DNA from: Candidatus Zixiibacteriota bacterium
Lineage (GTDB): Bacteria; Zixibacteria; MSB-5A5; UBA10806
Direction of reading: 5' to 3'
NCBI GenBank assembly: GCA_020348065.1
Contig: CP070742.1
Span: 2,060,737-2,098,089 of the forward strand
DNA length: 37,353 nucleotides
Part shown: positions 1 to 36,983 of the stretch, piece after piece
How the letters are laid out: each line of letters opens with the position of its first letter
Numbering within the stretch: the stretch's first letter is position 1
Translations under genes and position numbers: made by a program
Notes under the pieces: model-generated
The model's database searches: none
What the model saw: the letters and a program-made list of their open reading frames with translations, nothing else
What the model was told of the DNA's origin: nothing

Positions 1-2684
1 ATGTCAGGCATCGTTCCGGTCTCCCCCAGCTTATCGTAAATAATGGGGAGGTTCTATCGACCGTGGCATTTAATGATTCGTCAGCATATAGATATTCCAC
101 ATTTGTTACGGACGATCTTTCGGACGGCTTGAATCAAATTGAGGTTGTGGATGTAACGGATTTCTACCTGGATAATATCGAAATACATTATCCGCGATGG
201 CTGAAGGCCGTTGACGGGAACCTGAAATTTTCACAGCCCGGTGCCGAAGGCGTTATCAGGTATAACTTGAGTAACATATCAGGTCCTTATATTCTTCTTG
301 ATATCTCGGATATTTTATCGCCAACAAGAATTACGGGTGCTGAATTGTCCGGGGAGGATCTCGTGTTTCATAACGTCTCGGACAGCGTTTCTCATAATGA
401 GTTTTATATTTCTACGATTGAGCGCTTGAAAAGTCCCGGAAGCGTCAGCGTATATGAACCGGATAATCTGAGAGACATGACATCCCCGGACAACCGCGCC
501 GATATAGTTTTGGTCGCGTATGATTCTTTTGTGGATCAGGCCCAGAGGCTCGGGGAATTGAGAAGAGACGAATATGATCTTTCGACTCGCATCGTGAAAA
601 TATCGGATATTTATAATCAATTTTCGTGGGGATTGCAGGATCCGGTTGCCATCCGGGATTTTCTGAAATTCGCCTACGAGAACTGGCCGGAACCGGCGCC
701 CTCGTTCGCTACCCTTCTGGGCGACGGCCATTATGATTACAGGAGAAATCTGGGAGCTACTAACTTCAATTTCATTCCTCCCTATGAAAACAGCCCGGTT
801 ATGTCCGACGAACATTTCGTATACTTCGGGCCGTCCGGGTATCTCGATTCCGATACCAATAACGTACCCGATATGATGATTGGACGAATCCCTGCCAAGT
901 CAATACAGGATGCCGAAGAGATGATCGATAAATTTTATAATTACGACGGCGATCCGGATCTCTATCCCTGGAGAAATAAAGTGGTAATTGTGGCTGACGA
1001 TAATTTGCATCCCCCGAGATCGATTACGGAAACTTACCATACGTCACAGGCGGAAGGCCTGGCGAACGATCACGTGCCGAACAGGTTCGAAGTCTCGAAA
1101 ATATATCTGGTGGAATATCCTCTCAGGACCGGAGGCGAAAAGCCCGAGGCCAGGGAGGCGTTAATAGGGGCGTTTAACAGCGGTTCGTTGATTATTGACT
1201 GGATCGGGCATGGAAGCCCCGGGCTCTGGGCGGATGAGCATATATTCAGGCGATCGCAGGATATCGCCAGGTTGAGCAATGTCAGAAGACTGCCGCTGAT
1301 TTATACCGCCAGCTGTTCAATCGGCTTTTTCGACGATCCCTCATTCGAAAGCTTTGCCGAAGAGTTGTTGAGATCAAATCAGCGCGGAGGAGTTGCCGTT
1401 ATTTCGGCGACTCGCGAGGTGAATGCGTGGGCAAACGCCCAATTGAATGCCGCCGTATTTGATCTTTTGTTGGGCAGCGATTCGGTGGGTATCGGTGAAG
1501 CTTTATATACCGCGAAATATATTCGCAATGTACCTACATCTTCTAACGACAGATCGTACATGCTTCTCGGCGATCCGTCCCAGATTCTCCAATTCCCTAA
1601 ATTTGATGTTCAATTTTCAGCAGCGCCGGATTCGATCCTGGCGTTGAATGTCGGATCAGTAGCCGGTGAAATTATAGATAATAACAATAATGTAATGTCC
1701 GATTTTAACGGCACAGCCTGGATTACCGTTAAAGACGGCACCATAAATAGAACCGTCGTTTTGAGAGACAGAAATAATAATCCCATGGACCTGACCGTCG
1801 GTTTCAAAGCCCCGGGTCCGACCATATTTTTCGGCCCCGTTGAAGTTGTCGAGGGTCAATTTTCAAGCCAGTTCTTTATACCCAAAGATGTTTCTTATGG
1901 AAGTCAGGGGGCGAAAATATATGTATATGCCGAAAATAGTTCCTATGACGCCGCGGGGGTTGTGGATTCGCTGCCGGTTTCGGGCTCGATTCCATCAATC
2001 GCTGATTCTACGGGACCGGGCATAAACCTGCTTGTGGATGGAAGATCCTTCGGGGCCGGTATTACAATGGTTCCCGAAAGTTTCACGCTCGGAGGCGAGA
2101 TCGAGGACGAGCACGGAATTAATATCACCGGCCAACTGGGGCATGGTATTGTGGTGAAAATCGATGATGGCGATGTTTACGAAGCGGATATCACTGATAA
2201 TTTCGTATACAGTCGCGGCGAGTACACAAGCGGGATTTTCGAAATCGGCCTTCAGTCGCTGCCGCTGGGCGAACATGAACTTTCCATAAAAGCATGGGAC
2301 AATTTTAATAATTCGACATTGATTACAAAACGTATAGAAGTCGTTACGATGGACGGCCTTGAATTGTCCGAGGTGATGAACTATCCAAATCCCGTCAGGA
2401 ACGGTCACGATTTAACGACCTTTCAATACTGTCTTAACAATCCCGCGGAGCAGGTTAAAATCAGTATATTCACCGAATCCGGCAGAAAAATTAAATCGTT
2501 CGATCTTGTTTCGCCTCAATATACCGGCATGGATTGCAGCTACGTGCGTTGGAATCTGAAAGACGCGGACGGCGATGATCTGGCTAACGGAATATATCTG
2601 TATAAGATATCCGCGGAGGGAAGAGATGCAAACGGTCATAAGATGACGGCGGAAGATGTGAAAAAATTGGCGATATTGAGGTAA
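1..2684 (+). CDS. porU: PorU-like C25 (gingipain-family) cysteine peptidase, 5' end missing
   Basis: The reading frame is open from base 3 with no stop, so the gene begins upstream of the window. The GTG at 63 is only the first possible start inside it. Numbering from that codon, the C25 fold shows a conserved LLGDG at about 218-222, the catalytic-His motif IGHGS with His383, the catalytic-Cys motif TASCS with Cys418, and an LLGDP strand at 501-505. A beta-rich middle follows, then a C-terminal domain of about 100 residues starting near 765 with NYPNP at 773-777, of the FlgD/type IX sorting-domain type. PorU is the C25 sortase of the type IX system that cleaves cargo sorting domains at the outer membrane. 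The next gene is a PorV-family protein, which supports the sortase reading over a simple secreted protease. The family call is firm; the sortase role is inferred. Confidence 0.85.
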   Translation, partial: VRHRSGLPQLIVNNGEVLSTVAFNDSSAYRYSTFVTDDLSDGLNQIEVVDVTDFYLDNIEIHYPRWLKAVDGNLKFSQPGAEGVIRYNLSNISGPYILLDISDILSPTRITGAELSGEDLVFHNVSDSVSHNEFYISTIERLKSPGSVSVYEPDNLRDMTSPDNRADIVLVAYDSFVDQAQRLGELRRDEYDLSTRIVKISDIYNQFSWGLQDPVAIRDFLKFAYENWPEPAPSFATLLGDGHYDYRRNLGATNFNFIPPYENSPVMSDEHFVYFGPSGYLDSDTNNVPDMMIGRIPAKSIQDAEEMIDKFYNYDGDPDLYPWRNKVVIVADDNLHPPRSITETYHTSQAEGLANDHVPNRFEVSKIYLVEYPLRTGGEKPEAREALIGAFNSGSLIIDWIGHGSPGLWADEHIFRRSQDIARLSNVRRLPLIYTASCSIGFFDDPSFESFAEELLRSNQRGGVAVISATREVNAWANAQLNAAVFDLLLGSDSVGIGEALYTAKYIRNVPTSSNDRSYMLLGDPSQILQFPKFDVQFSAAPDSILALNVGSVAGEIIDNNNNVMSDFNGTAWITVKDGTINRTVVLRDRNNNPMDLTVGFKAPGPTIFFGPVEVVEGQFSSQFFIPKDVSYGSQGAKIYVYAENSSYDAAGVVDSLPVSGSIPSIADSTGPGINLLVDGRSFGAGITMVPESFTLGGEIEDEHGINITGQLGHGIVVKIDDGDVYEADITDNFVYSRGEYTSGIFEIGLQSLPLGEHELSIKAWDNFNNSTLITKRIEVVTMDGLELSEVMNYPNPVRNGHDLTTFQYCLNNPAEQVKISIFTESGRKIKSFDLVSPQYTGMDCSYVRWNLKDADGDDLANGIYLYKISAEGRDANGHKMTAEDVKKLAILR

Positions 2685-2730
2685 GATAATGATGATAAGC
2701 GGTCGACAATTAAGTAAAGGTCTCATATAT

Positions 2731-2735
2731 GGAGG
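2731..2735 (+). promoter_or_regulatory. Shine-Dalgarno GGAGG deciding the porV start
   Basis: GGAGG lies 5 nt before the ATG at 2741. An upstream in-frame ATG at 2729 would place this site inside the coding sequence. The ATG at 2741 also begins directly with a good signal peptide, so it is the preferred start. Confidence 0.7.
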
Positions 2736-2740
2736 AAATG

Positions 2741-5320
2741 ATGAGAGCGTATAAATATGCGTTAATATTGTTTTTGGTGATATCCGGGTCAGCGTCGGCG
2801 CAGGTCTCCCAGACTGCCGTGCAATTCTTGTTAATCGCTCCCGGAGCCAGAGCCGGGGGAATGGGGGAGACGTTCGTCGCAATTTCCGATGACGCCACGG
2901 CGGTTCACTGGAATCCCGCCGGACTCGGCCGTTATCCGCTAACCGGAAGCTGGCTGAACTTGAAGGCGGCCGAAGGGGATACCCTGAGGGAAGTCGTGCT
3001 GGTCAAAAATAACCTTCCCGAAGTCAACTATAAACAATATGATATCTGGGGGGTTGTTAACGGGAGATTATCGCGCTGGGAGAACGGTAAATGGATTGCG
3101 GGCATGCAGCATACTCTCAGGAAAGAATCTTCTCTTGAATCGATGATTCTGCGTTATACCGGTCTTGAGGAAAGCGATGCCCAGGTTTATATAGATCGTC
3201 TTGCCCGGGCTAATAATGAAATCACGCCCGAATCGATAGACTCGCTAGAAAGTTTTTTGGTGGCGATTTTACCGGAAGATTATATCTACAGGGAGGATAT
3301 TCAATTCGGATTTGAAAAACTTCACAGGACTTATTTGAGATTGAGAATAAACGTTTCGGGATTTAATGAGATCAAGAGCGATATTGAGACGGTTGCCGCT
3401 CAGTCTCCGCCCAGCGAGGATTTGTTAAACCAGATAGCATTCGGATTCGATAGGGCTATTTCGCCCAAAGGAGACAGGTCCGTATGGCTTCCCTACGATC
3501 TGATATTGCCGGATACTATAACCTGCCTGGCCTCGGATGATGATTACGTTTATGTCGGAACCAAAAAGGGATTTTTCCGTCTGGATCCCGGGAAATTCAG
3601 ATGGAGCTCATTTGCCGCCGAGGGTGATTCCTTGCCATCCAATAATATCACGGCCATCGAAAAAACCGGACGGCGTAAGATGTTCATAGGTACCGATAAG
3701 GGCGTATTCGTATTTTCGGGAAGGAACCTGGAACCGTTTGGAGAGGAGGCCGGGGCGCCCACCGGATACATATCGGCTATTGCCGCGAATAAGGATCGCG
3801 ATGTCTGGGCGGTTTCAAACGGCCTTTTGTATCACTATGATGGCGTCAAATGGCTATCGTCAAAGGTGGAAGAGATATCCATAGGAGAAGACCTTACTCT
3901 AACGGCAAAAAAATATTATGGAAAGTTCGGAGATACCTGGCACGAATCGCTCATGGAGAAAATAACGACGACCAATGCCGGCCGGCTGGATTCCGTCGAA
4001 GCCGGACAGTCGATTTTATTGCCTTACGAATCGGGATATAAAGGGGAAGTCACGGAATTGAGCGTCGACTCAAAAGGAAATTTATGGATCGGCACCTCGC
4101 TCGGGTTGGTCCTTTTGTCCGAAAACGGCTTCAGCCAATTCGGTTACAGATTGGTCGAAGTGCCGGAGGGCGGTTTATCCCTGGACGACATGGCCGCGCA
4201 GTTTATTCCCGACCGCGATCCCGTCAAAATAGAAACGCTTAAAAGCCTGATAAAAGAGTATAATGACCTGAAGTCAGAACAACTTTCCGGAGGAGACAGG
4301 ATACTCGTCAACGCCAATCCCCTGGCATCGAGAATTAATGCCGTGACGCAGATTTCAAACAAAAAGGCGATTGTGGCAACCACTTACGGGACTTTCAAGT
4401 ATAACAGCGGCGAATGGAGCAGGTTGTACAATCTTGGCGACGCGGGCACAAGAGTGGTGAATATTTATGAAAGAGGGGGCGAAATGTGGTTCGCTTCCGA
4501 TGACAGGGTGACCGTTTACGCAGCCGCCAAGAAACATATAACCTTCATGCATTCGAATTATCTCGTTCAGCTTGCGGATGATTTGTATTATGATTATTTC
4601 TCCATTGTATATCCTACCAGCGAATGGGGGACCTTCGGTTTCGGCGTTACCTTTTTATCTTACGGCAGCCAGGAGCGAACCAGTGAGATCGGTGACGCGC
4701 TGGGGTCTTTTGTATCGTATGATCTGGCCTTTACGCTTTCATATGGCACGAGAATAGCCCGCAATATATCGGGAGGCCTGTCATTGAGATACATTAACTC
4801 TCATCTCGCCGAAGCCGGTGCCGGCGCCGAGAAGGGAAAAGGCACGGGTTATTCTCTCGCAGTCGATGTGGGAGTCATGTATAATCTTACTCGTAGATTG
4901 ACACTGGCGACCAACGTTTCTAACCTGGGCCCCGATATCGCCTATATCGACGCGGATCAGGCCGATCCGTTACCCAGGAAACTGGCCTTCGGATTTAACT
5001 ATAAGCTTGTGGATTCTCCGTTCAACAAGATTTACATTCTGGGCGAGGCGGATAAACTTCTGGTGGATATGAACGATGATATTACAACCGAAATCGAGGA
5101 GGTAATCCCGCATCTCGGGATTGAATACTGGTATTCGAATTACGTCGGTCTGCGTTCCGGATACGTATATGACGATAAGGGCGTCCAGAAATACTTTACT
5201 CTTGGCGCGTCGTTGCAGTATTCGAATTACAGGTTCGATTTTTCGTATATTCCCTCCACGGACGAAAAATACAACCGTCTCGGAAATACAATGCGCTTTT
5301 CCATGAATGTGGGGTTCTGA
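2741..5320 (+). CDS. porV: PorV/PorQ-family outer-membrane protein with inserted beta-propeller
   Basis: Numbered from the preferred ATG at 2741 (859 aa). A signal peptide occupies about residues 1-20. The PorV/PorQ N-terminal signature is clear at about 34-62: GARAGGMGETFVA, then SDDATAVHWNPAGLG. The matching barrel half resumes near 602 with HSNYLVQL and WGTFGFGVTFLSYG and runs to the C-terminal Phe typical of outer-membrane barrels. Between them are about 535 extra residues: a region with predicted helical character (about 100-250), then two-component-regulator-type propeller blades with repeated VGT/IGT-x-x-G motifs (about 271, 316, 450). Ordinary PorV proteins are far shorter. PorV shuttles type IX cargo from the translocon to the PorU sortase, and PorU is the gene immediately upstream. 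The barrel assignment is strong; what the insertion does is unknown. Confidence 0.82.
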   Translation: MRAYKYALILFLVISGSASAQVSQTAVQFLLIAPGARAGGMGETFVAISDDATAVHWNPAGLGRYPLTGSWLNLKAAEGDTLREVVLVKNNLPEVNYKQYDIWGVVNGRLSRWENGKWIAGMQHTLRKESSLESMILRYTGLEESDAQVYIDRLARANNEITPESIDSLESFLVAILPEDYIYREDIQFGFEKLHRTYLRLRINVSGFNEIKSDIETVAAQSPPSEDLLNQIAFGFDRAISPKGDRSVWLPYDLILPDTITCLASDDDYVYVGTKKGFFRLDPGKFRWSSFAAEGDSLPSNNITAIEKTGRRKMFIGTDKGVFVFSGRNLEPFGEEAGAPTGYISAIAANKDRDVWAVSNGLLYHYDGVKWLSSKVEEISIGEDLTLTAKKYYGKFGDTWHESLMEKITTTNAGRLDSVEAGQSILLPYESGYKGEVTELSVDSKGNLWIGTSLGLVLLSENGFSQFGYRLVEVPEGGLSLDDMAAQFIPDRDPVKIETLKSLIKEYNDLKSEQLSGGDRILVNANPLASRINAVTQISNKKAIVATTYGTFKYNSGEWSRLYNLGDAGTRVVNIYERGGEMWFASDDRVTVYAAAKKHITFMHSNYLVQLADDLYYDYFSIVYPTSEWGTFGFGVTFLSYGSQERTSEIGDALGSFVSYDLAFTLSYGTRIARNISGGLSLRYINSHLAEAGAGAEKGKGTGYSLAVDVGVMYNLTRRLTLATNVSNLGPDIAYIDADQADPLPRKLAFGFNYKLVDSPFNKIYILGEADKLLVDMNDDITTEIEEVIPHLGIEYWYSNYVGLRSGYVYDDKGVQKYFTLGASLQYSNYRFDFSYIPSTDEKYNRLGNTMRFSMNVGF

Positions 5321-8300
5321 TATAGTGAGTCGCAGGCAGTATTATCAGATCCCTGTATCATTTTGTCTGGTTGTTTTGCTCTTTGCAGGCGCCGCCGCCG
5401 GCCATAAGATCATACCGATCCGGGGAATTCAACCCGTTCAAAATCCCCGTAACGCTGATCAGGTCCGGCGATGTATATCCGATGTTTCTCAAAAGAACCT
5501 TCTCGGATTGGACAGACCCTATCCCCTGGCGATGCCCACCGCAAGGCAGGGGATTCCAATAGAAGATGCGAGGGCTTCGGTGACAGTTGATACAACCATA
5601 AGAATCCTGGTTTTGCGGGTAGAGTTCTTGAGAGAATCGCCCGACAATCCCAGAACCACCGGAGACGGTACTTTCGATATGAGAAGCTATAATCAATTCG
5701 TGGCAGAAGAAGGGCATTTTATAGATCCCGCGCCGCACGATAAAGCATACTTTAACGCACACATGACGGCCCTGCGAAATTACTGGTACGCGGTGTCGGA
5801 TACCACATTGGATCTTGACTGGGATATATTTCCGAGAGAGGAAAGCGTCGCATATCGGCTTCCTGTGCATATGTCTTATTACGGCGCGGAGGGCGATTCG
5901 GGATGGACAGACCCGCGGGACCAGCTCGGTTACTTTTTTATGGATGCCGTAACGCTGGCAGACACCTCCGATCCCCTGATCGATTTTTCATTATATGACG
6001 CATTGATAATATTCCACGCCGGTTCCGACCAGCAGAATAACATACCGTTTATTTATGATACACCCGATGATTTTTATACGGGATTTATAATTATGGCAGA
6101 GCCCGTTATGGTAGATAACGGAACCGTGGGGATAAGAGAGGGGATATTAATGCCGGAAACTGAGAGCCAGGACAATCGTATCACGGCTTTGAATGCCGTT
6201 TTAGCCCATGAGTTCGGCCATCAGTTGGGTTTGATAGATTTATATAACACTTTGAATTTTATGACCCAGGTCGGTGATTTCGCGTTGATGGACAATAACG
6301 GTCTCTCGGTGGGAGTGCAGTTGTCTGTTGATTTTTCGTCTGTCGGGGGAACGATTCCTCTTATGCCCTGCGCCTGGTCGAGAGCTTTTCTGGGTTTTAA
6401 TGTGTCTCGTCTGATAACCGCCGGCGACGATCTGCCTGTATCGGCCGCGGCGCAAAATCATAGCGATACCGAAATTATAAAAGTTCCTGTAACCGAATTT
6501 GAATATTTTTTGATTGAAAACCGCCAGCAGGACGTGGATACCCTTCCGCCAAATTATCCCTATAATCTGGATAACGCTTTAATCGGGGACGAACAAACCG
6601 GAGTAATTCTGGGACCCGGTTTTGGAGTATATATCGGTAACGAGTTGGAATCATTCCTTGATACGGAATATGACAGGTTGATTCCGGGGAATGGAATGGC
6701 GATCTGGCATGTCGATGAATATGTTGCCTATCTTTCATACACCTCGAATCCCGGAGAATTTAACCGAATCCAATTCAATAATTATCAGACGAATACGTTA
6801 CAATTGGATAAAGACAGGCGTTTTCTAACTATTGTCGAGGCCGACGGCATTATCGATCTGGGAGGTAATTATTACAGAGGTTTTGGAGAAAGCGTCGATC
6901 TGTTCGGGCTCGGAAATAATTCCTCTTTTACTCCGTTTACCAATCCTTCCACGCACTCAAATCTCGGAGCCGACTCCCACATATTTATAACCGATATATC
7001 AGAATCGGATACGCTTATGACCGCCGATATCGAAATCGATTGGATGTTGCCGGGATGGCCGCAGATGAGTTTCCCCGGTAAAAGCTCCGATCCGGTTACG
7101 GCCGATCTCGACGGCGATGATACTCTCGAAGTGCTGGTCTCGGCTCTCAATAATCTTCTTATATACCGCCATAACGGCGCCAAATTCATAGATAACGATA
7201 TTATGATCTCTTTCCGGAATTATAACAATGATATGATGGTGTTGCCCTGGGGTCTCGCGGGAATTTGCGATACCACGATAATCGGCAGGCCGGTGCCGGC
7301 GGATTTCGATGGTGACGATACCCTGGAAGTGGCCGTTTCAACATCATCCGGATATTTGTATCTGTTCGAGGCGGCAGTCGTGCCGGGGCTGCAAAAAGCC
7401 GGGCTGGCAACGGGTTTTCCCATGAAGATTTCCGATTCCGGATTGTTAACGCCCGTGGCGGTTGATTTCGATTCTATCAACGGTTCGGAAGTCTTGGCCT
7501 TCGATGATACAGGAAGTGTACATATAGTCGCCGGTTCGGCCAGCGATAATATCGTGCATAAATTAGAAGGCGATTTATTATCTGCGGCGGGATACAACGC
7601 CGCCGGTTACAATGTTATTGACGCGGCAATACAAACGGGCAATGGAATTGTTATATCGAGGATAACTGCGGATTCCGGTACTCTCGCCTTCGAATCTGAA
7701 TTCGAGTACGAATTCCCGGAAAACGACTCCTGCTTTTTAATCGCGGCGGATATTGACCGGGACGGCGGTCTGCCCGAGATAATCGCCGTGAGTTCAAATA
7801 CTATAAGAGTTATCGAAACCGATGGATCGCTGGCCTGGCACAGGAGCGGGGAGGGAAGGTTGAGTCATCCGGCGGTGGGAGATATCAATTCCGACGGTTA
7901 CCCGGAGATAGTCGCTGCAGGCGATTCAAAAATATACGCGTATAATTTCGGTGGTTTTCTGCTTTCTGATTTTCCCATCGATCTGGGCCGTTTCGATCTT
8001 TATGGCCCGATAGAGTCGGGCCCGATTCTGGCCGATCTCGACAGCGATGATAATCCCGATGTCCTGGTGGGATTGCCGGGCGGGGGGATTTACGCTTTCA
8101 GTTACAGGACCGACAGGATATTCGGATTTCCTCTGGCGAGTTCCTTCGGTATCGGCAACATAGCCGCGGTCGCGGATCTCGATAACGACGTTGATTTTGA
8201 CCTGGTTTTTATAGAGGAATCGGGATATATAAGCGCCTGGGATATTTCCTCGGATCGTGAAAGTGCTAACGCTCCCTGGGCGATGTCAGGGGGGAATATT

Positions 8301-8636
8301 TATAACAATGGCTATCTGGATAACATATATGAAAAAGCGGTTGTTACGACCGATGTGCAGCTGCCGGCGGATTCCGTTTATAATTATCCGAATCCCGCCT
8401 CCAACTCCACAACCATCAGATATTACCTGAACGGCGATTCCGAGGTTAATATCGATATATTCGATTTCATGGGCGAGAGAGTGCATTCGACGAGCCTTCG
8501 TGGAACGGCAAACATAAACAACGAATATGTCTGGGATTGTTCGGGCATTGCTTCCGGCGTTTATTTCTGCCGGGTGGAGGCCGATAATGGCCAGGTTAAA
8601 AAACATAAAATAATAAAGATAGCGTTGGTAAAATAA
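5307..8636 (+). CDS. Secreted M6-family (immune inhibitor A-like) metalloprotease with FG-GAP-like repeats and C-terminal sorting domain
   Basis: The zinc site HEFGHQLGLID is at residues 301-311, with ligands His301 and His305 and catalytic Glu302, as in M6 peptidases. A hydrophobic signal segment ends near AGAAAG. From about residue 590 to 970 there are roughly seven calcium-binding-like FG-GAP/VCBS repeats of the DxDxDxxxE/D type, such as ADLDGDDTLEV and GDINSDGYPEI. A FlgD-like/type IX sorting domain begins near NYPNP at about 1026. The ATG at 5307 overlaps the preceding gene by 14 nt and lacks a Shine-Dalgarno. A GTG at 5325, just after the upstream stop, is an equally plausible start and leaves a compact signal peptide. 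Its position next to PorU/PorV-like genes suggests it is cargo of that system. Confidence 0.85.
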   Translation: MWGSDIVSRRQYYQIPVSFCLVVLLFAGAAAGHKIIPIRGIQPVQNPRNADQVRRCISDVSQKNLLGLDRPYPLAMPTARQGIPIEDARASVTVDTTIRILVLRVEFLRESPDNPRTTGDGTFDMRSYNQFVAEEGHFIDPAPHDKAYFNAHMTALRNYWYAVSDTTLDLDWDIFPREESVAYRLPVHMSYYGAEGDSGWTDPRDQLGYFFMDAVTLADTSDPLIDFSLYDALIIFHAGSDQQNNIPFIYDTPDDFYTGFIIMAEPVMVDNGTVGIREGILMPETESQDNRITALNAVLAHEFGHQLGLIDLYNTLNFMTQVGDFALMDNNGLSVGVQLSVDFSSVGGTIPLMPCAWSRAFLGFNVSRLITAGDDLPVSAAAQNHSDTEIIKVPVTEFEYFLIENRQQDVDTLPPNYPYNLDNALIGDEQTGVILGPGFGVYIGNELESFLDTEYDRLIPGNGMAIWHVDEYVAYLSYTSNPGEFNRIQFNNYQTNTLQLDKDRRFLTIVEADGIIDLGGNYYRGFGESVDLFGLGNNSSFTPFTNPSTHSNLGADSHIFITDISESDTLMTADIEIDWMLPGWPQMSFPGKSSDPVTADLDGDDTLEVLVSALNNLLIYRHNGAKFIDNDIMISFRNYNNDMMVLPWGLAGICDTTIIGRPVPADFDGDDTLEVAVSTSSGYLYLFEAAVVPGLQKAGLATGFPMKISDSGLLTPVAVDFDSINGSEVLAFDDTGSVHIVAGSASDNIVHKLEGDLLSAAGYNAAGYNVIDAAIQTGNGIVISRITADSGTLAFESEFEYEFPENDSCFLIAADIDRDGGLPEIIAVSSNTIRVIETDGSLAWHRSGEGRLSHPAVGDINSDGYPEIVAAGDSKIYAYNFGGFLLSDFPIDLGRFDLYGPIESGPILADLDSDDNPDVLVGLPGGGIYAFSYRTDRIFGFPLASSFGIGNIAAVADLDNDVDFDLVFIEESGYISAWDISSDRESANAPWAMSGGNIYNNGYLDNIYEKAVVTTDVQLPADSVYNYPNPASNSTTIRYYLNGDSEVNIDIFDFMGERVHSTSLRGTANINNEYVWDCSGIASGVYFCRVEADNGQVKKHKIIKIALVK

Positions 8637-8665
8637 TATTAAAAGAAATTCGGGAGGTAATTAAA

Positions 8666-9514
8666 ATGCGCAGAAATTTGATTATATTATTGATCATATT
8701 GTTTCCGGCGTTAACCGCGGACGCCTCGACTTTCGGCTTGACTAAAATGAAATCTATAAAACATCAGATGCTCGAAAACGGCCTGGCGATGGAAAGAATT
8801 TCCAGCAGAGAACTGGATTTTTCCAGACAGGGAGAAAATGAGACCCTTGGTGATATTTATGAATACAAAATGAAATCGCCCTTTAAAGCCTTCATGATGT
8901 CGTTAGCCGTTCCCGGATTGGGAGAATATTATGTCGGTCAAAAAATAAAGGCGGGTTCGTTTTTCGCCGCGGACGTGATTTTATGGACCGGTTATTTTAT
9001 CTACCGAAACAAAGGTAAAGATAAAGAAGAGGAATATCAGCAGTACGCGGACGAACATTATTTATGGAATACGTATATTCAATGGTGGGATTCACCCGCG
9101 GTTCCGGATTCTATCAAGCTGACGTATTCTCATTCTATGCCCTGGGACAGCACTGCCAACCAGCCCATATTTAATCATGAATATTACGAAAATATCGGTA
9201 AGTACGATCAGTTTCAGGTTGGCTGGGATGATATAGGTACTAATTTCCCGCCTCCCCCTATTCCGGGAGGAACGAGCGTTATATCCGGGCATAGAGCTTT
9301 TTACCTGAACCTTCGAAAAAAATCGAATGATTATTTCACGACCGCGTCCACTGTAGCCATGATCTCTATCGCCAACCATATTATCTCCGCCTTTGACGCG
9401 GCCATAGCGACCAAAAAATTCAACAAGGGCGCCAAACAATATTCCTTTAATTTCAAGGCCAGAAGATATGACGGTGAAATGACGCCGTTTCTGGAGTTCA
9501 CGGCCAAGTTTTAA
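8666..9514 (+). CDS. Signal-peptide-bearing DUF5683-like envelope protein, first of a tandem pair
   Basis: A strong Shine-Dalgarno (GGGAGGT, 8652-8658) sits 7 nt before the ATG. The protein (282 aa) has a cleavable signal peptide of about 21 residues ending in ADAS. The recognisable core is a hydrophobic hairpin around residues 70-110: SLAVPGLGEYYVGQ, a short basic turn, then a second hydrophobic segment ending in a basic Lys/Arg-rich stretch. This resembles the small membrane domain called DUF5683 (PGLGQ-Y motif), seen mainly in the Bacteroidota. A second hydrophobic segment is near 228-245. The next gene shares the same plan and is a diverged paralogue. Function is unknown; the location between a secreted protease and outer-membrane barrels suggests an envelope role. 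Confidence 0.65.
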   Translation: MRRNLIILLIILFPALTADASTFGLTKMKSIKHQMLENGLAMERISSRELDFSRQGENETLGDIYEYKMKSPFKAFMMSLAVPGLGEYYVGQKIKAGSFFAADVILWTGYFIYRNKGKDKEEEYQQYADEHYLWNTYIQWWDSPAVPDSIKLTYSHSMPWDSTANQPIFNHEYYENIGKYDQFQVGWDDIGTNFPPPPIPGGTSVISGHRAFYLNLRKKSNDYFTTASTVAMISIANHIISAFDAAIATKKFNKGAKQYSFNFKARRYDGEMTPFLEFTAKF

Positions 9515-9516
9515 TC

Positions 9517-10275
9517 ATGAGCGCTATCAGTAAAACAATCACAGTCTTAATGCTGTTGACGCTGTTTGTCGGGACTGCCGGTTCGCAGACGATACGGCAA
9601 AAGATGCTGGCCGGCCTGGAGCAAATGGGCGGCGATGATGATTTCGATTTTTATGATTTTCCCGAATCGATGGATAAGGAGGAGGGCGCGAAATCCAGAT
9701 GGAAAGCGCTGGGGCTGTCGATTGTCCTTCCCGGAGCGGGTCAATATTATACCGAATCCAGGGGTAAAATGATATTTTTCGGAGGCGCCGAAGCCTTGAT
9801 ATGGTCGAATTTCGTCGGCTTCCGGCTTTACGGGAAATGGAAAAAAGAGGATTACATCGGCTGGGCGGCCACCCACGCCGGCGTCGATGTTAACGGGAAA
9901 CCCGATTCCTATTTTGAGACATTGACCTATTACGACAATATCGATATATATAATCAACTGGAGCTCTTGTATGAAAGATCCGAGGCCGAACTCTACCCCG
10001 ATACGCCGGAGTTTTACTGGAATTGGGATTCTGACGAAAGCAGAGTCCATTTTAGAAAACTGAGAAATGACAGCAAAACCGCCTACAGAAGGTCCCTCCT
10101 GTTCCTCGGGGCCGCCCTGGTCAACAGGGTGCTTTCCGGTATAGACGCTTTTCGTTCGGCAGGTTCTTACAACCGTCGAAAGGAGTTCAGCGATAATGGT
10201 TGGAGATTGTATTACTCGGCCGCCGGATCTATCGCCGAAAGCAAAATTGAGATCGGCATTTCGCGCCAGTTCTAA
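9517..10275 (+). CDS. DUF5683-like envelope protein, second of the tandem pair
   Basis: It starts 2 nt after the upstream stop, so the two genes are co-transcribed. The protein (252 aa) has a signal peptide ending near GTAGSQ. An acidic Asp-rich linker (about 38-52) is followed by the paired motif LSIVLPGAGQYYTESRGK near residues 67-85, which matches the preceding protein in position and pattern. A late hydrophobic segment (LLFLGAALVNRVLSGIDAF, near 190-210) also has a counterpart in the neighbour (SIANHIISAFDAAIA). The pair therefore arose by duplication and has diverged strongly. No enzymatic motif is visible. Confidence 0.65.
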   Translation: MSAISKTITVLMLLTLFVGTAGSQTIRQKMLAGLEQMGGDDDFDFYDFPESMDKEEGAKSRWKALGLSIVLPGAGQYYTESRGKMIFFGGAEALIWSNFVGFRLYGKWKKEDYIGWAATHAGVDVNGKPDSYFETLTYYDNIDIYNQLELLYERSEAELYPDTPEFYWNWDSDESRVHFRKLRNDSKTAYRRSLLFLGAALVNRVLSGIDAFRSAGSYNRRKEFSDNGWRLYYSAAGSIAESKIEIGISRQF

Positions 10276-11218
10276 TTTTATCAGACCATTATTGATTTTA
10301 CTAACGGCATGCGCCGGAACCGACCAGGTTAATCGAAAATACGTAGACAATATTGCTGCTGAGAAGATCATAAATGTTCGTTTTGTCCAATCCGTCGGTC
10401 CGTCCTCCGACGTTAGAATAAAACTGATGGAACCCTCTGATATCGCCGTAAATCAACTGGGTGAAATATACGTGTCGGACGGCGAATTAAATATGATTCT
10501 TAAACTATCCGACAGGCTGGAGATGCTTTCATACGAGGGCGGTATGGGAAGCGGTCTCGGGGATTTTAACAGACCGTCCGGAATGGCCTGCGACGCGGCC
10601 CTGAACCTGTATGTCGCCGATCCGGGAAACAGGCGGATTCAGATACTCGATAGAAATCTTCATCAGGCTCCAGCTAAAACCGAATATTTCGAAAAAGACG
10701 GATCGACACGCAAGTTCAATCTTCCGGAAGACGTGGCCATAGACTTTGAGGGTAACGTTTGGGTGGCTGACGATGACAGGGTTTTAAAGATCAATCCCTT
10801 CAATGAAATTGTACTCGAGCTGTCTTACTCCTCGCCGGCGGGGTTGAATATCGGCAAGGCCGTATCAATTGCGGCTACGGGAACCGGAATTATCGCCATC
10901 GGGGATTCGGGGAATAAAAAACTGTTCGTCATTTCCTCCTACGGCAATTTGATATCCGAATTTCAGATCGGTTTAATTTCGTCGATTGCGTGGGAAGGAA
11001 AAGATATAATCTGGGCTTCAAGCCTCGTGAACGAAACGGTTTCTGCGTATGATATATACGGGAACCGTCTGTTTGTGTTTGCGGATAAGAACCCCGGCGC
11101 TAAACCAGCATCCATCACTATTGATAAACAGGGGAATCTGCTTGTTGCGGATAGAGGGCTCGGAAAGATCTCGCGCTATGAAATAATCAGAAGTAAAGCA
11201 GATCCATCCGAAAGATAG
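10196..11218 (+). CDS. NHL-repeat beta-propeller lipoprotein
   Basis: A lipobox L-T-A-C is preceded by the hydrophobic stretch FIRPLLILL, so the mature protein is probably lipid-anchored. Propeller blades follow: PSDIAVNQLGEIYVSDG, PSGMACDAALNLYVADPGNRRIQIL and PEDVAIDFEGNVWVADD, then two or three weaker ones, the last reading ITIDKQGNLLVADRG. Start choice is open. The ATG at 10196 has AGGAG at 10181-10185 with a 10-nt spacer but adds a non-signal-like leader. A TTG at 10247 would give a textbook 21-residue lipoprotein signal. Either start lies inside the end of the preceding gene. NHL propellers usually act as protein-interaction platforms. Its place between the envelope pair and the large barrel suggests a periplasmic accessory subunit. 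Confidence 0.75.
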   Translation: MVGDCITRPPDLSPKAKLRSAFRASSNFIRPLLILLTACAGTDQVNRKYVDNIAAEKIINVRFVQSVGPSSDVRIKLMEPSDIAVNQLGEIYVSDGELNMILKLSDRLEMLSYEGGMGSGLGDFNRPSGMACDAALNLYVADPGNRRIQILDRNLHQAPAKTEYFEKDGSTRKFNLPEDVAIDFEGNVWVADDDRVLKINPFNEIVLELSYSSPAGLNIGKAVSIAATGTGIIAIGDSGNKKLFVISSYGNLISEFQIGLISSIAWEGKDIIWASSLVNETVSAYDIYGNRLFVFADKNPGAKPASITIDKQGNLLVADRGLGKISRYEIIRSKADPSER

Positions 11219-11219
11219 C

Positions 11220-14200
11220 ATGTCCCGTATAAAAAAATGTCTGAATATATTTATTGTACTCATCCTGGCATCAAACGTGGCGAAGTCCGAATTACCTTCG
11301 GCAAACATTCAAATCGTGGGGAAAGGTACGCGCGGACCTTACCTTCCGGGATATGAAAATATAATATCAAATTCGGTATCCATAATCAGGGACGGCGTTA
11401 TTATCGACCCGGAAACTTATGATGTCGCCTATGTTGAAGGCGTATTTTGGTTTGATGAAATCGTTCCCGTTGACGATACGTTTACCGTAATTTTTAAATA
11501 TCTGCCGGTATCCCTTCAAACTCAGTATTACCTGCATGAGATGAAAACCGGGGCCGTTAAGGAGCGCGGGCGGAAAATCAAACTCGGCGGTTCAACCTCA
11601 GCCAGGGAAAGCGATATAACAATAAGCGGCAGTAAGGGATTTTCAATTGAGACGGGGGAGGGCTCGGATCGGCTGTCCCAGTCTTTAAACCTGAATATAA
11701 AGGGGGAGTTAATACCGGGATTGCGGACATCGGCCCATATTTCCGATAAAAGCGGCAATGGCGGTGCCGTTACCAGAAGACTTAATGAGCTGGATAAAAT
11801 ATATATCGAGGCTGAATCGAGATATTTCAAGGGTATATTCGGGGATTATGATTTCCATGAAACAGGTTTGAGCATGATGAGCTTCCGGAGAAAGCTGACG
11901 GGGTTGAATTTGAAATACGGTAAAAATGGGCGGGAAATCAGAGGGGCCGCCGGTTTTTTCCCGGGCGAATATAGAAGGTTGAATATTCCGGGAACGGATG
12001 GACGTCTGGGTCCTTATTATCTCACCGAAACCAATGGAAGAGAGGGCGTGCCGGTTCTGCCAGGTTCCGAACGAGTATATATTGACGGGGACCTACTGTC
12101 GCGGGGCAGCGAGAAGGATTATACCATAGACTACGAATCGGGAGCGATACAGTTCGCGCCATCCACTGTGATTCGGAACGAATCGAGGATAACCGTAGAA
12201 TATGAAGTCTCCCGCGAGGAATACAGCAGGTCGTTCTTCGCGGCCACCGGAGAATATCAGTCGTTCGGCGGATTAACCCTCTTTTCGAAACTCATTCAGG
12301 AAGGCGACAACGGCGATTCCCCCAAAAGCTTCGATATGACCACAGAAAACCGTAATCTGATCGAAAACGCGGGTTCCGATCCCTTGGAAGCGTCGAAAAG
12401 CGGCGTTACGTTTCGGGGCCCCGGGGAGGGGGATTATAATCCGGCAGTCGATACCCTGGGAAATCAGTATTTCGCTTATGCCGGGCCCGACCTCGGTGAT
12501 TATGATGTAACATTTTCGTTTATCGGTGAGAGCATGGGTTCCTATTTGCCTCTGGGCGGCGGGGTATTCCAATATGTCGGCTCGGGAATGGGAAATTATG
12601 AACCGGTTATTCTGATCCCGATCCCGCAATTAAAACGGTATGGCACAATCGGCTCTTCATGGAAGTCTGAAGATAACAATTTCAGTTTTTACGGGGAGAT
12701 TTCGGGTTCGCTTAACGACCGCAATGCAATATCTCAAATCGATAACATCGAGAAAGGGACGGCCGGAGCGGCCAAAATCGATTATGCTCGGAGCATTTTA
12801 GGCTCGAATGCCTTCGCCGGCTTCGGAATCGTTACCAGAAAAATCGGACACGGTATGATTTTCCCGGGTAGAGTCGATGACGTTGAGAGATATCGGGATT
12901 ACGATCTCGATCCCGAAACGTCTCTGGACGGCGAATGGATCAGCGAGTTAACCTTAAAAGGCGGATTGGATCACGACAGAAACGTATCGCTCTTGCTGGG
13001 AGACTTACGGCGCCCTGAAGAAAAACGCAGAAAACGCCGAAAAGGCGCTTTTGATTGGCGAATAATAGGTCCTTTAAAAGCTATCGGGAAATCCGAAAGA
13101 GTATCGGGCTTAAGAAACTGGGTAAAAAGAGATCTGGAGTTCACCGCCTCACTGAAAAAAATACAGCCCGGGATTGGTGTGGAGTATGAAAAGCGTAACG
13201 GCGAATCGGGATTCAAATATTATGAATACCGCGGAAGGCTGCAGACGACCTTATCATCGGATTTGCAAACCGAAACGGAGCTCAATTACAGGGATGAAAA
13301 AGCCCTGGAAACATCCTGGTTTGATAAATTTCAGTCGGGATACGTAAAGCAGAGCATTGATTTCACAATAGGACAGACGGGTTTATCGGGCGAATTAAAC
13401 GGCTCATATTACAAAAAAATATACAAAGATAACTCCGGCGCCGATTCGGATCAGAAGTCGGGATGGACGCGGCTGAACTATAACGATGCCGGAGAAAGAT
13501 TCGAATTGAAAATTAATGAAAGGTTGAGCGCGTCAAACGAGAGAGTGCAGTCGAGAAATTATATTTTTGTCGGCGAAGGTAACGGCGAATACAGGTTTGA
13601 GGACGGCGAATATATAAGAGATCCGGACGGCGATTATATATTGGTGCTGGAGGAACTCGGTGAGGGCGAAAAAATAACTGAAATTTCCACAGAGTTCTAC
13701 GGCGCAATCCGCCCTTTTATGTTTGCCGATTCAAAAGAAAATATCGAGGCTTCCGCGGGACGGCTGATTATCGAATCGGATCTCGCTTATAATCAAAGGA
13801 AATCCGAAGACCGATTGATATTCTCTGATTTCGTGCCCTGGAAAAAGGACAACCCGGACGATCTTGTTTTCAGAAATGGTAGACTCGATCTGCGCGTTTT
13901 TTATTATCCTCCCTCTTCAAAACAGCGGATAAAATATAATCTCGTTCGCTCATACGAAGATGGACGCAAATATGCCAATGAGACGAGCCGCGACAACATG
14001 TCGTCCGATGAAATTTCATGGGCCTTTCCGGCGGGCAAGAAGATAAACATTATATTGATCGGATCAATATCTAAAAGAGAAAGGCAGATAAACCAGGTAT
14101 CGTTGAATCTAAGTCGTCATAAAGAATCGATTTCAACGGAGTATAGATTTCATGATTCCTGGAATCTGAGATGCGGCGCCGAATATGAGAATGTCAGGCA

Positions 14201-14507
14201 AAGGGAGACCGATATTATTTCGCATATACCGTCGACAAACCTGAGTCTGACCAGGGAGTTGGGGAAGCGGGGACGGATTTCGTCTAACGTTTCGTATTTT
14301 CGAGTGATCGTCAGGCCGGAAGGCTCGTATATACCGTATCAAATCGCCGGTGGAAAACGTGCGGGAGACAACTTTGAAGGCGGCGTTCAGGCCAGAATCG
14401 AGCCGATTAATAATGGAAGGTTTGAGCTTTCTTATAGATTTGAAAAATTCTCCATGAGGTCCGAGAGACAGAATTTCAGACTCCAGTTTACGTTGTTGTT
14501 TCTATGA
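11220..14507 (+). CDS. Large predicted outer-membrane beta-barrel protein with SprA-like YTIDY motif
   Basis: The protein (1095 aa) follows the lipoprotein stop by 1 nt and has a signal peptide of about 23 residues. Most of the chain alternates polar and aromatic or hydrophobic residues, as in transmembrane beta-strands, and it ends in LQFTLLFL, an acceptable barrel terminus. Near residues 282-305, SERVYIDGDLL continues to DYTIDY and then a xxIxF strand. This motif recurs in SprA, the type IX translocon, and in related uncharacterised FCB surface proteins. It is less than half the usual SprA length. A degenerate glycine/tyrosine motif (G-x-G-x-Y) recurs between about 399 and 460 and again near 784-808. 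A SprA-related role is inference; an uncharacterised surface barrel is the safe call. Confidence 0.6.
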   Translation: MSRIKKCLNIFIVLILASNVAKSELPSANIQIVGKGTRGPYLPGYENIISNSVSIIRDGVIIDPETYDVAYVEGVFWFDEIVPVDDTFTVIFKYLPVSLQTQYYLHEMKTGAVKERGRKIKLGGSTSARESDITISGSKGFSIETGEGSDRLSQSLNLNIKGELIPGLRTSAHISDKSGNGGAVTRRLNELDKIYIEAESRYFKGIFGDYDFHETGLSMMSFRRKLTGLNLKYGKNGREIRGAAGFFPGEYRRLNIPGTDGRLGPYYLTETNGREGVPVLPGSERVYIDGDLLSRGSEKDYTIDYESGAIQFAPSTVIRNESRITVEYEVSREEYSRSFFAATGEYQSFGGLTLFSKLIQEGDNGDSPKSFDMTTENRNLIENAGSDPLEASKSGVTFRGPGEGDYNPAVDTLGNQYFAYAGPDLGDYDVTFSFIGESMGSYLPLGGGVFQYVGSGMGNYEPVILIPIPQLKRYGTIGSSWKSEDNNFSFYGEISGSLNDRNAISQIDNIEKGTAGAAKIDYARSILGSNAFAGFGIVTRKIGHGMIFPGRVDDVERYRDYDLDPETSLDGEWISELTLKGGLDHDRNVSLLLGDLRRPEEKRRKRRKGAFDWRIIGPLKAIGKSERVSGLRNWVKRDLEFTASLKKIQPGIGVEYEKRNGESGFKYYEYRGRLQTTLSSDLQTETELNYRDEKALETSWFDKFQSGYVKQSIDFTIGQTGLSGELNGSYYKKIYKDNSGADSDQKSGWTRLNYNDAGERFELKINERLSASNERVQSRNYIFVGEGNGEYRFEDGEYIRDPDGDYILVLEELGEGEKITEISTEFYGAIRPFMFADSKENIEASAGRLIIESDLAYNQRKSEDRLIFSDFVPWKKDNPDDLVFRNGRLDLRVFYYPPSSKQRIKYNLVRSYEDGRKYANETSRDNMSSDEISWAFPAGKKINIILIGSISKRERQINQVSLNLSRHKESISTEYRFHDSWNLRCGAEYENVRQRETDIISHIPSTNLSLTRELGKRGRISSNVSYFRVIVRPEGSYIPYQIAGGKRAGDNFEGGVQARIEPINNGRFELSYRFEKFSMRSERQNFRLQFTLLFL

Positions 14508-16174
14508 GAAAAATAAGCGTAATATTGATCTCAATTCTTATATGGTTTATAGCGAAAGACGCCTTTTGTGATTTAAAATTCCAGGGCAACCTCGCTCTAT
14601 CCGACAGGGAACTCCTGAGGGTCATCGATCCGAATCCCGGCGCTGATAGCATTTCCGATCAGATTAAAAAAATATACCGGAACCTGGGATATTTTGATAT
14701 CGAGGTGGAAAGAGAATATTTGGATCGATCGCAAAACAGGGTTTTCATAATCAGCGAAGGGAAGCAGTCGAAGATATCTGCCATTGATCTGGACATCGTG
14801 CCCGACAGCCTGAAATTAATCCTGGATGGTCTGCTCGATATGTTTGTGGGCCGCGCGGCGTCTCAAAAATCGTTCAGGCAATTTGCCGAGGGATGCGTAA
14901 ATATGCTGGCGGAAAACGGAATGCCGTTCGCACGCGGCGAATGGGCCGAATTCAAGCCGGATGAAAACGACAACATAATTGCGGGCTTTAAAATAATCCC
15001 GGGGCCCCTCTCGATTATATCGGATATTGAATTTAACGGGATTAAGAGAACGAAACCTGAAACGCTGGAGAAAGCGGCGGGATTGGAAAAGGGTAATCAA
15101 TTTTCCCAAAAAGAGGTTTTGCGTTCGGAGAAATTGATAGGAAAACTCCCGTATGTCGAAATATCGTCGCCGTATTATCTGGAGATATCGACGAACGGTG
15201 ATTCCTGCACGGTCGTATATAACATCAGGGAATTCCCGTCGACGAGGATTGAGGGATTTGGCGGTATTATAAACGTAAAGGGTAAAACGGACTTCATCGG
15301 CCGTGTGAATATCGAGTTCGGCGATATATTCGGTACCGGAAGAATGTTCGGCCTGTTCTGGAATAAAAAAGATACACGTTCAAATGAATTGAGCATAAAA
15401 TATGTTGAACCGTTCATTCTTGAAAGCCGGCTCGATCTGGAACTGGAAGCGTATCAGATAGACCGCGATACGTTGTATGTTACAATCGGCGGTAAGGCGT
15501 CTCTCATCCATAATTTCAGCATCGACCTGGCCGGGGCTTTGCGTACGTCAATAGAAAGGACGGTTCCTGAAACAGGATCGAATATCTGCAGGTCCGTCAA
15601 ACGCTCCATCGGGATCGACTTTGATTACAATAAATCCGATTTTCCTCCCAATCCGAAATCGGGATATGAATTCGGAACCGAACTTGAATACAGGTATCGT
15701 TCAAACAGCGCGGTATCGGAAGGGCAAAATCCGCCCTCCAATATTACGTCGGCCGGGTCAGACGGAGCCCTCTATCTTAATCCGGGAAGTAGATTTGTTG
15801 CGGCCGCCTTTTTTAAAGGGTGGGGAATTGTATCGGCAAATGGAAATGTCCCGGCCGATGAATATAGATTTATAGGCGGCGTTAATGATTTACGGGGATA
15901 TACTGAACAGCAGTTTCCGGCGTATCGATACCTGATTTTGAGCGTGGAACCGCGCTGGATTACCGGCACATATTCCAGGGCTTATCTCTTTGGCGATTTT
16001 GGACTTATAAAAGGCTCACAGGAAAAAGGCAACGATTACAAGTTCAGGCCCGGATACGGATTGGGATTGGTTTCCGGAAGCAGAATCGGTCAGGTAAGGG
16101 TTGAAATCGGATGGGGAGACGAGAATTTCCCCGATGGCGCTGTCTTTAATCTCGGTATCGGCGGCAGTTTTTAA
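14504..16174 (+). CDS. Omp85/BamA-family outer-membrane protein (POTRA domains plus surface-antigen barrel)
   Basis: The start overlaps the upstream stop as ATGA, indicating translational coupling with the large barrel gene. The protein (556 aa) has a signal peptide of about 22 residues. Two to three POTRA-like modules occupy about 23-240, the clearest being ISDIEFNGIKRTKPETLEKAAGL. The barrel runs from about 250 to the C-terminal Phe of GIGGSF. The conserved Omp85 lid-lock motif appears as LRGY at 463-466, preceded by RFIGG. The length is shorter than a five-POTRA BamA and closer to TamA-type proteins. Omp85 proteins insert or translocate polypeptides at the outer membrane. The coupling suggests it may serve the barrel encoded just upstream. 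Confidence 0.85.
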   Translation: MRKISVILISILIWFIAKDAFCDLKFQGNLALSDRELLRVIDPNPGADSISDQIKKIYRNLGYFDIEVEREYLDRSQNRVFIISEGKQSKISAIDLDIVPDSLKLILDGLLDMFVGRAASQKSFRQFAEGCVNMLAENGMPFARGEWAEFKPDENDNIIAGFKIIPGPLSIISDIEFNGIKRTKPETLEKAAGLEKGNQFSQKEVLRSEKLIGKLPYVEISSPYYLEISTNGDSCTVVYNIREFPSTRIEGFGGIINVKGKTDFIGRVNIEFGDIFGTGRMFGLFWNKKDTRSNELSIKYVEPFILESRLDLELEAYQIDRDTLYVTIGGKASLIHNFSIDLAGALRTSIERTVPETGSNICRSVKRSIGIDFDYNKSDFPPNPKSGYEFGTELEYRYRSNSAVSEGQNPPSNITSAGSDGALYLNPGSRFVAAAFFKGWGIVSANGNVPADEYRFIGGVNDLRGYTEQQFPAYRYLILSVEPRWITGTYSRAYLFGDFGLIKGSQEKGNDYKFRPGYGLGLVSGSRIGQVRVEIGWGDENFPDGAVFNLGIGGSF

Positions 16175-16378: not shown

Positions 16379-17365
16379 ATGGAACAACAAATAGCCGATA
16401 TTCAGGAATTGATTAAGCAGAAATCATCATTTATCGACCGCCTGAGCGCAGAGATATCGAGGGTGATAGTAGGGCAAAAGTATTTGATCGAAAGGCTTTT
16501 AATAGGCCTTCTGGCGGATGGCCATATTCTTATCGAGGGCGTGCCCGGGCTGGCTAAGACCCTGTCGGTCAGGACGTTGTCGGACGCCATCCAGACCGGA
16601 TTCAAACGTATTCAGTTTACCCCGGATCTTCTGCCGGGTGATTTAATTGGCACTCAGATCTATTCCGCGAAGGATAGCCGGTTTACGGTGAGGAAAGGGC
16701 CGATATTTTCCAATCTCATTCTGGCCGACGAGATCAACCGCGCCCCCGCCAAGGTACAATCGGCATTGCTTGAGGCCATGCAGGAACGGCAGGTCACGAT
16801 AGGCGACGAGACCTTCAAACTGCCCGAACCTTTTCTGGTGCTGGCCACGCAGAATCCGATTGAGCAGGAGGGCACCTACCCGTTGCCCGAAGCCCAGGTG
16901 GATCGCTTTATGCTGAAACTTAAAGTCACCTATCCTAGTCCGGAAGAGGAACTGGAGATCCAGGAGAGAATGGCGCCGCAGAGGAACATCGACGTCTCGA
17001 AAATCACAAGCCCCGACGAAATTATTGACGCCCGAAAAGCCATGCATCAAATCTACATAGATGAGAAGGTAAAAAAGTATATCGTGGATATAGTATGCGC
17101 CACCAGGGAACCGCAGAAATACGGAATCGAGCTCGAGGATCTGATCGATTATGGAGCGTCTCCCAGGGCGTCCATTTATCTGAATATCGTTTCCAGGGCT
17201 TACGCATTCCTGAAAGGCCGGGCCTACGTTACCCCTGATGACGTGAAAATCATAGGTCCCGACGTCCTGAGACATAGAATCATCCTCTCCTATGAGGCCG
17301 AAGCCGAGGAAATGACGTCGGATGATATTATCAGAAAAGTATTCAACGGAGTCGAGGTACCGTAA
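16379..17365 (+). CDS. moxR: MoxR-family AAA+ ATPase, first gene of the Bat operon
   Basis: The protein (328 aa) is a normal-length MoxR ATPase. Walker A is GVPGLAKT at 54-61, Walker B is LILADE at 113-118, the sensor-1 Asn is in ATQNP at 156-160, and the conserved EAQVDRF follows at about 171-177. MoxR proteins are chaperone-like ATPases that act with vWA-domain partners, and two such partners are encoded downstream. A strong GGGAGGAG Shine-Dalgarno precedes the ATG. The next gene begins on the base after the stop, so the two are surely co-translated. Confidence 0.95.
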   Translation: MEQQIADIQELIKQKSSFIDRLSAEISRVIVGQKYLIERLLIGLLADGHILIEGVPGLAKTLSVRTLSDAIQTGFKRIQFTPDLLPGDLIGTQIYSAKDSRFTVRKGPIFSNLILADEINRAPAKVQSALLEAMQERQVTIGDETFKLPEPFLVLATQNPIEQEGTYPLPEAQVDRFMLKLKVTYPSPEEELEIQERMAPQRNIDVSKITSPDEIIDARKAMHQIYIDEKVKKYIVDIVCATREPQKYGIELEDLIDYGASPRASIYLNIVSRAYAFLKGRAYVTPDDVKIIGPDVLRHRIILSYEAEAEEMTSDDIIRKVFNGVEVP

Positions 17366-18247: not shown

Positions 18248-18250
18248 AAG

Positions 18251-19255: not shown

Positions 19256-19256
19256 A

Positions 19257-36271: not shown

Positions 36272-36983
36272 TATAAAGCTTGATGTTCTCTCAATTGCGG
36301 CGCATCGCGACGACACCGAAATTGTATCCGGAGGCACTATTATAAAGATGGTAGATCTGGGTTATGCTGTGGGGATACTGGATCTTACCGAAGGCGAGTC
36401 CGGGTCGCGGGGAAGCGCCGAGAACCGTAGAAATGAGGCCGAATGCGCATCGAAAGTCATGGGAATTAAATACCGCCACAATCTCGGATTGCCTGACGCC
36501 GGCCTTTACGACACGCAGGAAAACGCGCTGAAGGTAGCGAAGATAATACGAGAGACGAAACCGGAGTTGGTAATACTGCCCTACTGGAAACAGCGCCATC
36601 CCGACCATGCCGCCGCAAGCCAGACAGGATACAGGGGATGTTTCCTCGCCGGCCTGGGCAAGATGCCCATAGACGGCAAACCGTATCGCCCGAGGAAGAT
36701 CATTTATTCAACGTCGTTTCATGACGACAACCCGTCATTCGTGGTGGATATTACCGACCAGTTCAAGCGAAAATGCGAGGCGGTAGCCTGCTATAAGACT
36801 CAGTTTGAGGAGAAACCGGGAGAGCGCGAGGTATATCCCCCGGCGCGCAATATATTCGACTACATGGAGATCAGGAATCGCCAGTACGGTTATATGATCG
36901 GGGTCAAATACGCCGAATGCTTCATCCAGAAAGAGAAAATGAGCCTCGATGACCCGCTGAAACTGCCGGGCAAATCGATCTGA
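36264..36983 (+). CDS. bshB1: BshB1-type LmbE/PIG-L deacetylase of bacillithiol synthesis
   Basis: The protein (239 aa) removes the acetyl group from GlcNAc-malate. Zinc ligands are His14 and Asp17 in AHRDD, and His115 in HPDH (112-115). The usual motif is AHPDD, and here Arg replaces Pro at residue 15. The GGTII strand, DLTEGESGSRGSAENRRNEA and the C-terminal MIGVKYAECF match BshB1. It ends the bshC-bshA-bshB1 set, which encodes the complete pathway. Alternative LmbE activities are unlikely given the operon. Confidence 0.94.
   Translation: MADIKLDVLSIAAHRDDTEIVSGGTIIKMVDLGYAVGILDLTEGESGSRGSAENRRNEAECASKVMGIKYRHNLGLPDAGLYDTQENALKVAKIIRETKPELVILPYWKQRHPDHAAASQTGYRGCFLAGLGKMPIDGKPYRPRKIIYSTSFHDDNPSFVVDITDQFKRKCEAVACYKTQFEEKPGEREVYPPARNIFDYMEIRNRQYGYMIGVKYAECFIQKEKMSLDDPLKLPGKSI

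Follow-up and report, generated by a model that had tools for sequence, protein, structure and literature searches.

We analysed a stretch of 37,353 nucleotides (nt) from a Candidatus Zixiibacteriota genome that is a single contig of 3.74 Mb (the window; G000:C1:2060737-2098089), and describe here a gene block tied to the type IX secretion system (T9SS) at its 5' end. Eight co-directional genes lie on the + strand within window positions 1-16174, with intergenic gaps of -80 to +44 nt, in the order PorU, PorV with an insert, M6 protease, two DUF5683-like proteins, NHL lipoprotein, mini-SprA and mini-BamA; a 204-nt gap separates the last gene from the next operon. We use the name mini-SprA for a barrel of 1095 amino acids (aa) that carries a SprA motif, and mini-BamA for a 556-aa Omp85 protein. 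An initial annotation, made from the sequence alone, had proposed one co-directional sortase and outer-membrane block with overlapping or near-overlapping genes, and strand, spacing and family identities all agree with this. The features are as follows, with the supporting profile or AlphaFold2 (AF2) evidence in brackets.

3-2684, + strand: PorU, a C25-family type IX sortase with a C-terminal T9SS tail-like domain (NF033707, Pfam C25)
2729-5320, + strand: PorV-family carrier/anchor barrel with a large inserted domain (NF033709, AF2, Foldseek)
2810-2938, + strand: PorV hatch, residues 28-70, containing DDATAVHWNPAGLG (profile match to the PorV N-terminus; near-invariant NPAGLG)
2939-4528, + strand: PorV insert, residues 71-600, a beta-propeller with LysM-like segments, predicted periplasmic (Reg_prop, LysM, AF2)
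4535-5317, + strand: PorV 14-strand barrel, residues 603-863, with the conserved loop YIDADQADPLPR (DSSP of the AF2 model)
5307-8636, + strand: M6 metalloprotease with FG-GAP repeats and a type A T9SS sorting domain (TIGR04183, NF052323)
8666-9514, + strand: DUF5683-like envelope protein 1 (Pfam 2.6e-4, below the gathering score; conserved position)
9517-10275, + strand: DUF5683-like envelope protein 2, a paralogue of protein 1 (ortholog cross-matches; conserved position)
10196-11218, + strand: NHL beta-propeller lipoprotein (Pfam NHL 1.4e-19; LLTAC lipobox-like start)
11220-14507, + strand: mini-SprA, a 1095-aa outer-membrane barrel with about 36-39 predicted strands (AF2, Foldseek)
12000-12260, + strand: SprA-shared motif of mini-SprA, residues 261-347, LPGSExVYLDGxxLxRGxDYxIDYxxGxIxF (hhalign, TIGR04189)
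14504-16174, + strand: mini-BamA, a 556-aa Omp85 protein with POTRA domains (Pfam Omp85 6.6e-13, POTRA)

The gene order is conserved well beyond the window. We compared 20 loci of relatives, and the same order holds in almost every one that is long enough to show it. We also retrieved 79 named loci, nearly all from Candidatus Zixiibacteriota, by a PorV profile search of genome contigs; because the loci came from that profile, the counts for pairs with PorV as a member depend on its presence. Adjacency was kept for PorU and PorV in 72/72 loci, PorV and the M6 gene in 76/77, the M6 gene and DUF5683 in 44/47, the DUF5683 pair in 40/42, DUF5683 and NHL in 28/35 and NHL and mini-SprA in 25/28, and mini-SprA was followed by mini-BamA in all 18 testable loci. 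The grouping is far beyond chance and conserved phylum-wide. The mini-SprA family is also present in many genomes that share only the domain level with that of the window: at 20 such distant loci, mini-BamA comes next in about 11 and an NHL gene precedes mini-SprA in about 10. M6/DUF5683 genes lie just upstream at four loci of other phyla (L167, L169, L170 and L171), two of which (L170 and L171) have PorU and PorV as well. Genomes G190 and G323 also carry the mini-SprA/mini-BamA pair, and G299, whose SprA scores 2705 bits, has mini-SprA alone. Thus, the comparison of gene order called for by the initial annotation finds the order kept across the phylum and the NHL/mini-SprA/mini-BamA trio recurring in other phyla, and the link it had noted between a small Omp85 protein and the SprA-motif barrel is a conserved adjacency across phyla.

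The same chromosome encodes a separate, full-length SprA of about 1950-1980 aa (C1:959.7-965.6 kb; 583 bits to TIGR04189), along with at least 150 genes for proteins with a C-terminal sorting domain (CTD) and about 12 PorV-family genes, so that CTD cargo, SprA, PorU and PorV all occur in one genome. A search elsewhere in the genome for sprA, porL and porM, part of what had been proposed initially, recovered SprA and left PorL and PorM without a find. The PorL/GldL model, which reaches about 1e-56 in the other genomes G299 and G164, has no match in this genome and none over its cut-off in the class, and a divergent motor is conceivable; for PorM/GldM (TIGR03517, PF12081) there was no convincing match and no true positive as control, which makes that search uninformative.

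We next considered the co-occurrence of mini-SprA, PorU and SprA in the 291 genomes outside the class, counting mini-SprA at E<1e-30. There, mini-SprA was found in 57 genomes, SprA in 73 and PorU in 84. As 54 of the 57 genomes with mini-SprA also have SprA, mini-SprA does not replace SprA. Of the SprA-positive genomes, those with mini-SprA have PorU in 53/54 cases and those lacking it in 1/19; when a single genome was kept for each family, the figures were 39/40 and 1/14. This indicates that mini-SprA is more closely associated with the sortase than with the translocon. All 97 genomes of the class have PorU, but a strong match to mini-SprA is seen in about 83 of them, so that the dependence between the two runs one way.

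The sortase itself is well defined. Despite its 5' truncation, PorU scores 596 bits against the NF033707 equivalog (cut-off 420) and matches Pfam C25 at 4e-84, and its catalytic dyad, H403 and C438 in the numbering of the window fragment, is invariant in 60/60 homologs; on sequence grounds, it is a true type IX sortase equivalog. Its start codon lies outside the window. A masked stretch (N) is found inside the PorU gene just upstream of the window start (L158, last open reading frame, from 8617).

The PorV-type barrel of the initial annotation belongs to the PorV/PorQ family (NF033709, 242 bits; cut-off 90), but it is not a plain barrel, since an insert of about 530 aa is present; the insert splits the match to the PorV equivalog NF033710, which stays at 183 bits, below the cut-off of 250. 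The AF2 model, built from 45 sequences (predicted local distance difference test (pLDDT) 86.8, predicted template modelling score (pTM) 0.81), places the 14 barrel strands at residues 603-862, preceded at 74-600 by a propeller that contains helical, LysM-like segments. Its best Foldseek matches in the Protein Data Bank (PDB) are PorV chains (8gl6_F and 6h3i_F), followed by propeller sensors; the barrel aligns with residues 69-258 of 6h3i_F, and the insert propeller matches 3ott and 4a2l. Among 18 PorV homologs, Pfam finds Reg_prop in 17 and LysM in 9. Glycans of the peptidoglycan type are the ligands of LysM modules. The insert is placed between hatch and barrel, immediately ahead of strand 1, and turns 2-3, 4-5, 6-7, 8-9, 10-11 and 12-13 are short, as is typical of the periplasmic side, whereas the alternate loops are longer. 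Because the entry point precedes strand 1 and the long loops mark the opposite face, the topology read from the DSSP string of the model predicts a periplasmic insert. In another phylum, a syntenic PorV of 339 aa (L170) lacks the insert, and the two halves join at residues 75/80; in a further case from another phylum (L171:1549-4059), an unrelated, apparently helical insert of about 500 aa occupies the same hatch/strand-1 site.

Mini-SprA appears to be an undescribed family, a half-length relative of the giant SprA export channel. Neither Pfam nor NCBIfam has a model that covers it, and a sequence search of solved structures returned nothing relevant. Alignment to SprA of its own phylum (hhalign) gave E 1.1e-10 over 94 columns. 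TIGR04189, the SprA model, scores it at 24 bits and also matches 14/21 of its homologs; as the equivalog cut-off is 200, we call the protein SprA-like and not SprA. At E<=1e-3, the family is found in 201/388 genomes, a count that includes weak cross-matches to SprA. The AF2 model, from 21 sequences (pLDDT 81.1, pTM 0.67), has about 36-39 long strands, and SprA itself forms a 36-strand barrel (PMC12611786). Four of the five best PDB matches in Foldseek are SprA chains (including 8gl6_A at 5e-10, 8gl8_A and 6h3i_A; 5e-10 to 1e-6). Mini-SprA is therefore predicted to be a very large SprA-type barrel. Homology to SprA over the whole length was rejected on profile comparison, in which only the motif is significant: the N-terminal parts are collinear but weak (E 0.02, probability ~2.5%), and the C-terminal parts do not align.

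Its partner, mini-BamA, is a member of the Omp85 superfamily with POTRA domains and an Omp85 barrel. Against the BamA equivalog TIGR03303 it scores 85 bits (cut-off 297), and the canonical BamA of the genome sits elsewhere, at C1:1113441. Mini-BamA may act as the assembly factor of mini-SprA. In most relatives (L036-L053), although not in the genus of the window, a UbiA-type prenyltransferase gene (~280 aa) lies directly 3' of mini-BamA, and the same neighbour occurs in one other phylum (L177:4339-5220).

Among the remaining genes, the M6 protease has a sorting tail scoring 47 bits to TIGR04183. It reaches 378 bits, below the cut-off of 600, to NF052323, an 'inactivated' T9SS M6 family, and the active-site motif HExxHxxGxxD is intact in 65/66 homologs. 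Both DUF5683-like paralogues are sub-threshold to Pfam, and orthologs of protein 2 in relatives match protein 1 with E values between 1e-7 and 1e-22. The start codon of the NHL gene is uncertain (ATG at 10196 or TTG at 10247). Farther downstream, the window holds an aerotolerance-type MoxR/DUF58/BatA/BatD/TPR operon (16379-25552) and, at 33519-36983, adjacent genes for BshC, a GT4 glycosyltransferase and a PIG-L deacetylase, probably an operon for bacillithiol synthesis.

How might these parts work together? We consider it an even call that the block is a conserved, PorU-linked surface-attachment (sortase) module of the type IX system, standing beside an ordinary SprA translocon in Zixibacteria and several other phyla. 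CTD-bearing cargo would exit through the separate full-length SprA and be processed at the cell surface by PorU, which the adjacent PorV would hold there. The inserted propeller, with LysM in many members, could attach the platform of PorU and PorV to peptidoglycan or to partners in the periplasm; PorV would therefore be a stationary anchor rather than a mobile shuttle, and the ~11 ordinary PorV-family genes elsewhere could supply shuttles. The NHL lipoprotein, mini-SprA and mini-BamA would form a second, linked unit, in which mini-SprA, a compact but very large barrel whose insertion the neighbouring Omp85 protein probably assists, serves the sortase arm. It perhaps exports PorU, the M6 protease or an anchor molecule that is joined to cargo. 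Doubtful, by our own estimate, is the fuller proposal that the trio is an undescribed second giant-barrel channel for the sortase arm, in a type IX system outside Bacteroidota that works without a PorL-type motor and in which a built-in domain in the periplasm fixes PorV to the wall.

Known systems offer partial parallels. In the attachment complex of Porphyromonas gingivalis (PorU, PorV, PorQ and PorZ), PorU likewise stands beside PorV, presumably anchored by it, and the cargo carries CTDs (PMC7463736); here, however, PorV has a large, predicted-periplasmic insert, the fixed neighbours are an M6 protease with an intact active site and two DUF5683 proteins, and the NHL/mini-SprA/mini-BamA trio comes in addition. 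Mini-SprA resembles the SprA/Sov translocon in its motif, its predicted very large single-chain barrel and its best fold matches, and differs from it in size (1095 aa versus ~1950-2400 aa) and in coexisting with SprA. Mini-BamA shares POTRA domains and an Omp85 barrel with BamA, but is shorter, far under the BamA cut-off and the fixed partner gene of mini-SprA. The nearest functional parallel to the PorV insert is PorE (PG1058) of P. gingivalis, a periplasmic protein with a beta-propeller and a peptidoglycan-binding domain, whose proposed role is to fasten the T9SS to the wall (PMC7192894). PorE, however, stands alone as a lipoprotein and has TPR and OmpA-like domains, whereas here PorV itself harbours the propeller and LysM.

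Several observations weigh against a sortase module of this kind. Pfam finds no LysM in the PorV of the window, and recognises one in only half of the homologs. Foldseek TM-scores between mini-SprA and SprA are low (0.23-0.27), and their significant alignment is limited to the motif of ~94 columns. Shared ancestry of lineages is only partly controlled in the co-occurrence counts, as the phylogenetic control was the choice of one genome per family. Moreover, in about 14 of the 97 class genomes, all with a completeness of 85% or more, PorU and SprA occur without a strong mini-SprA match, and several Zixibacteria loci keep the first six genes without mini-SprA and mini-BamA; mini-SprA is therefore not essential for PorU. 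As UBP14-type loci retain the first five genes only and some Zixibacteria six, the block has at least two parts. The UBP14 loci would also fit a mini-SprA and mini-BamA that form an independent second exporter (of lipid, glycan or a narrow set of proteins), which shares a large-barrel ancestor with SprA and whose position next to type IX genes in Zixibacteria is incidental. The trio or pair stands apart from PorU and PorV in several other phyla, beside unrelated housekeeping genes such as those for RNase E/G or glycogen synthase, and the UbiA-type prenyltransferase that comes next in most Zixibacteria points the same way. However, mini-SprA follows PorU closely even among SprA-positive genomes, and linkage to PorU, PorV or M6 genes recurs in other phyla (L169, L170 and L171), so that we regard an independent exporter as possible but on the unlikely side.

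Two further explanations carry less weight. PorZ works with PorU (PMC8545088), and the PorV insert could be a surface-exposed, PorZ-like propeller, making the protein a PorV-PorZ fusion that delivers the sortase partner outside. The insert does match the PorZ model NF052228 and the P. gingivalis chain 5m11 weakly, but its site separates the hatch from strand 1, and the loop joining strands 1 and 2 is long and of extracellular type, which places the insertion point in the periplasm. The glycan preference of LysM also speaks against exposure at the surface, and we hold the fusion to be improbable. The initial annotation had suggested a reduced T9SS, that is, a self-sufficient block in which mini-SprA substitutes for SprA. 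The SprA-like motif and fold, the adjacency to PorU and PorV and the failure to find a PorL/GldL motor would all suit this idea. Against it stand a full SprA on the same complete chromosome and in 54 of the 57 other genomes with mini-SprA, and some class members that have PorU and PorV without mini-SprA; we thus rejected it as the principal explanation and consider it very improbable. The annotation had named, as joint grounds for refuting its proposal, a canonical sprA and por set elsewhere and a gene order that relatives do not share. The first applies by half, with SprA recovered and PorL and PorM without a find, and the second is clearly not what the 79 loci show.

Type IX secretion has been studied almost only in Bacteroidota, and our literature search found no paper that mentions both it and Zixibacteria. 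The genes described here accompany the sortase across phyla, and they include a family of large barrels that no Pfam or NCBIfam model covers, as well as a PorV into which a further domain is built. They make it possible to test how PorU is retained at the surface, whether a second giant translocon exists, and what energy source drives type IX export where PorL is not found.

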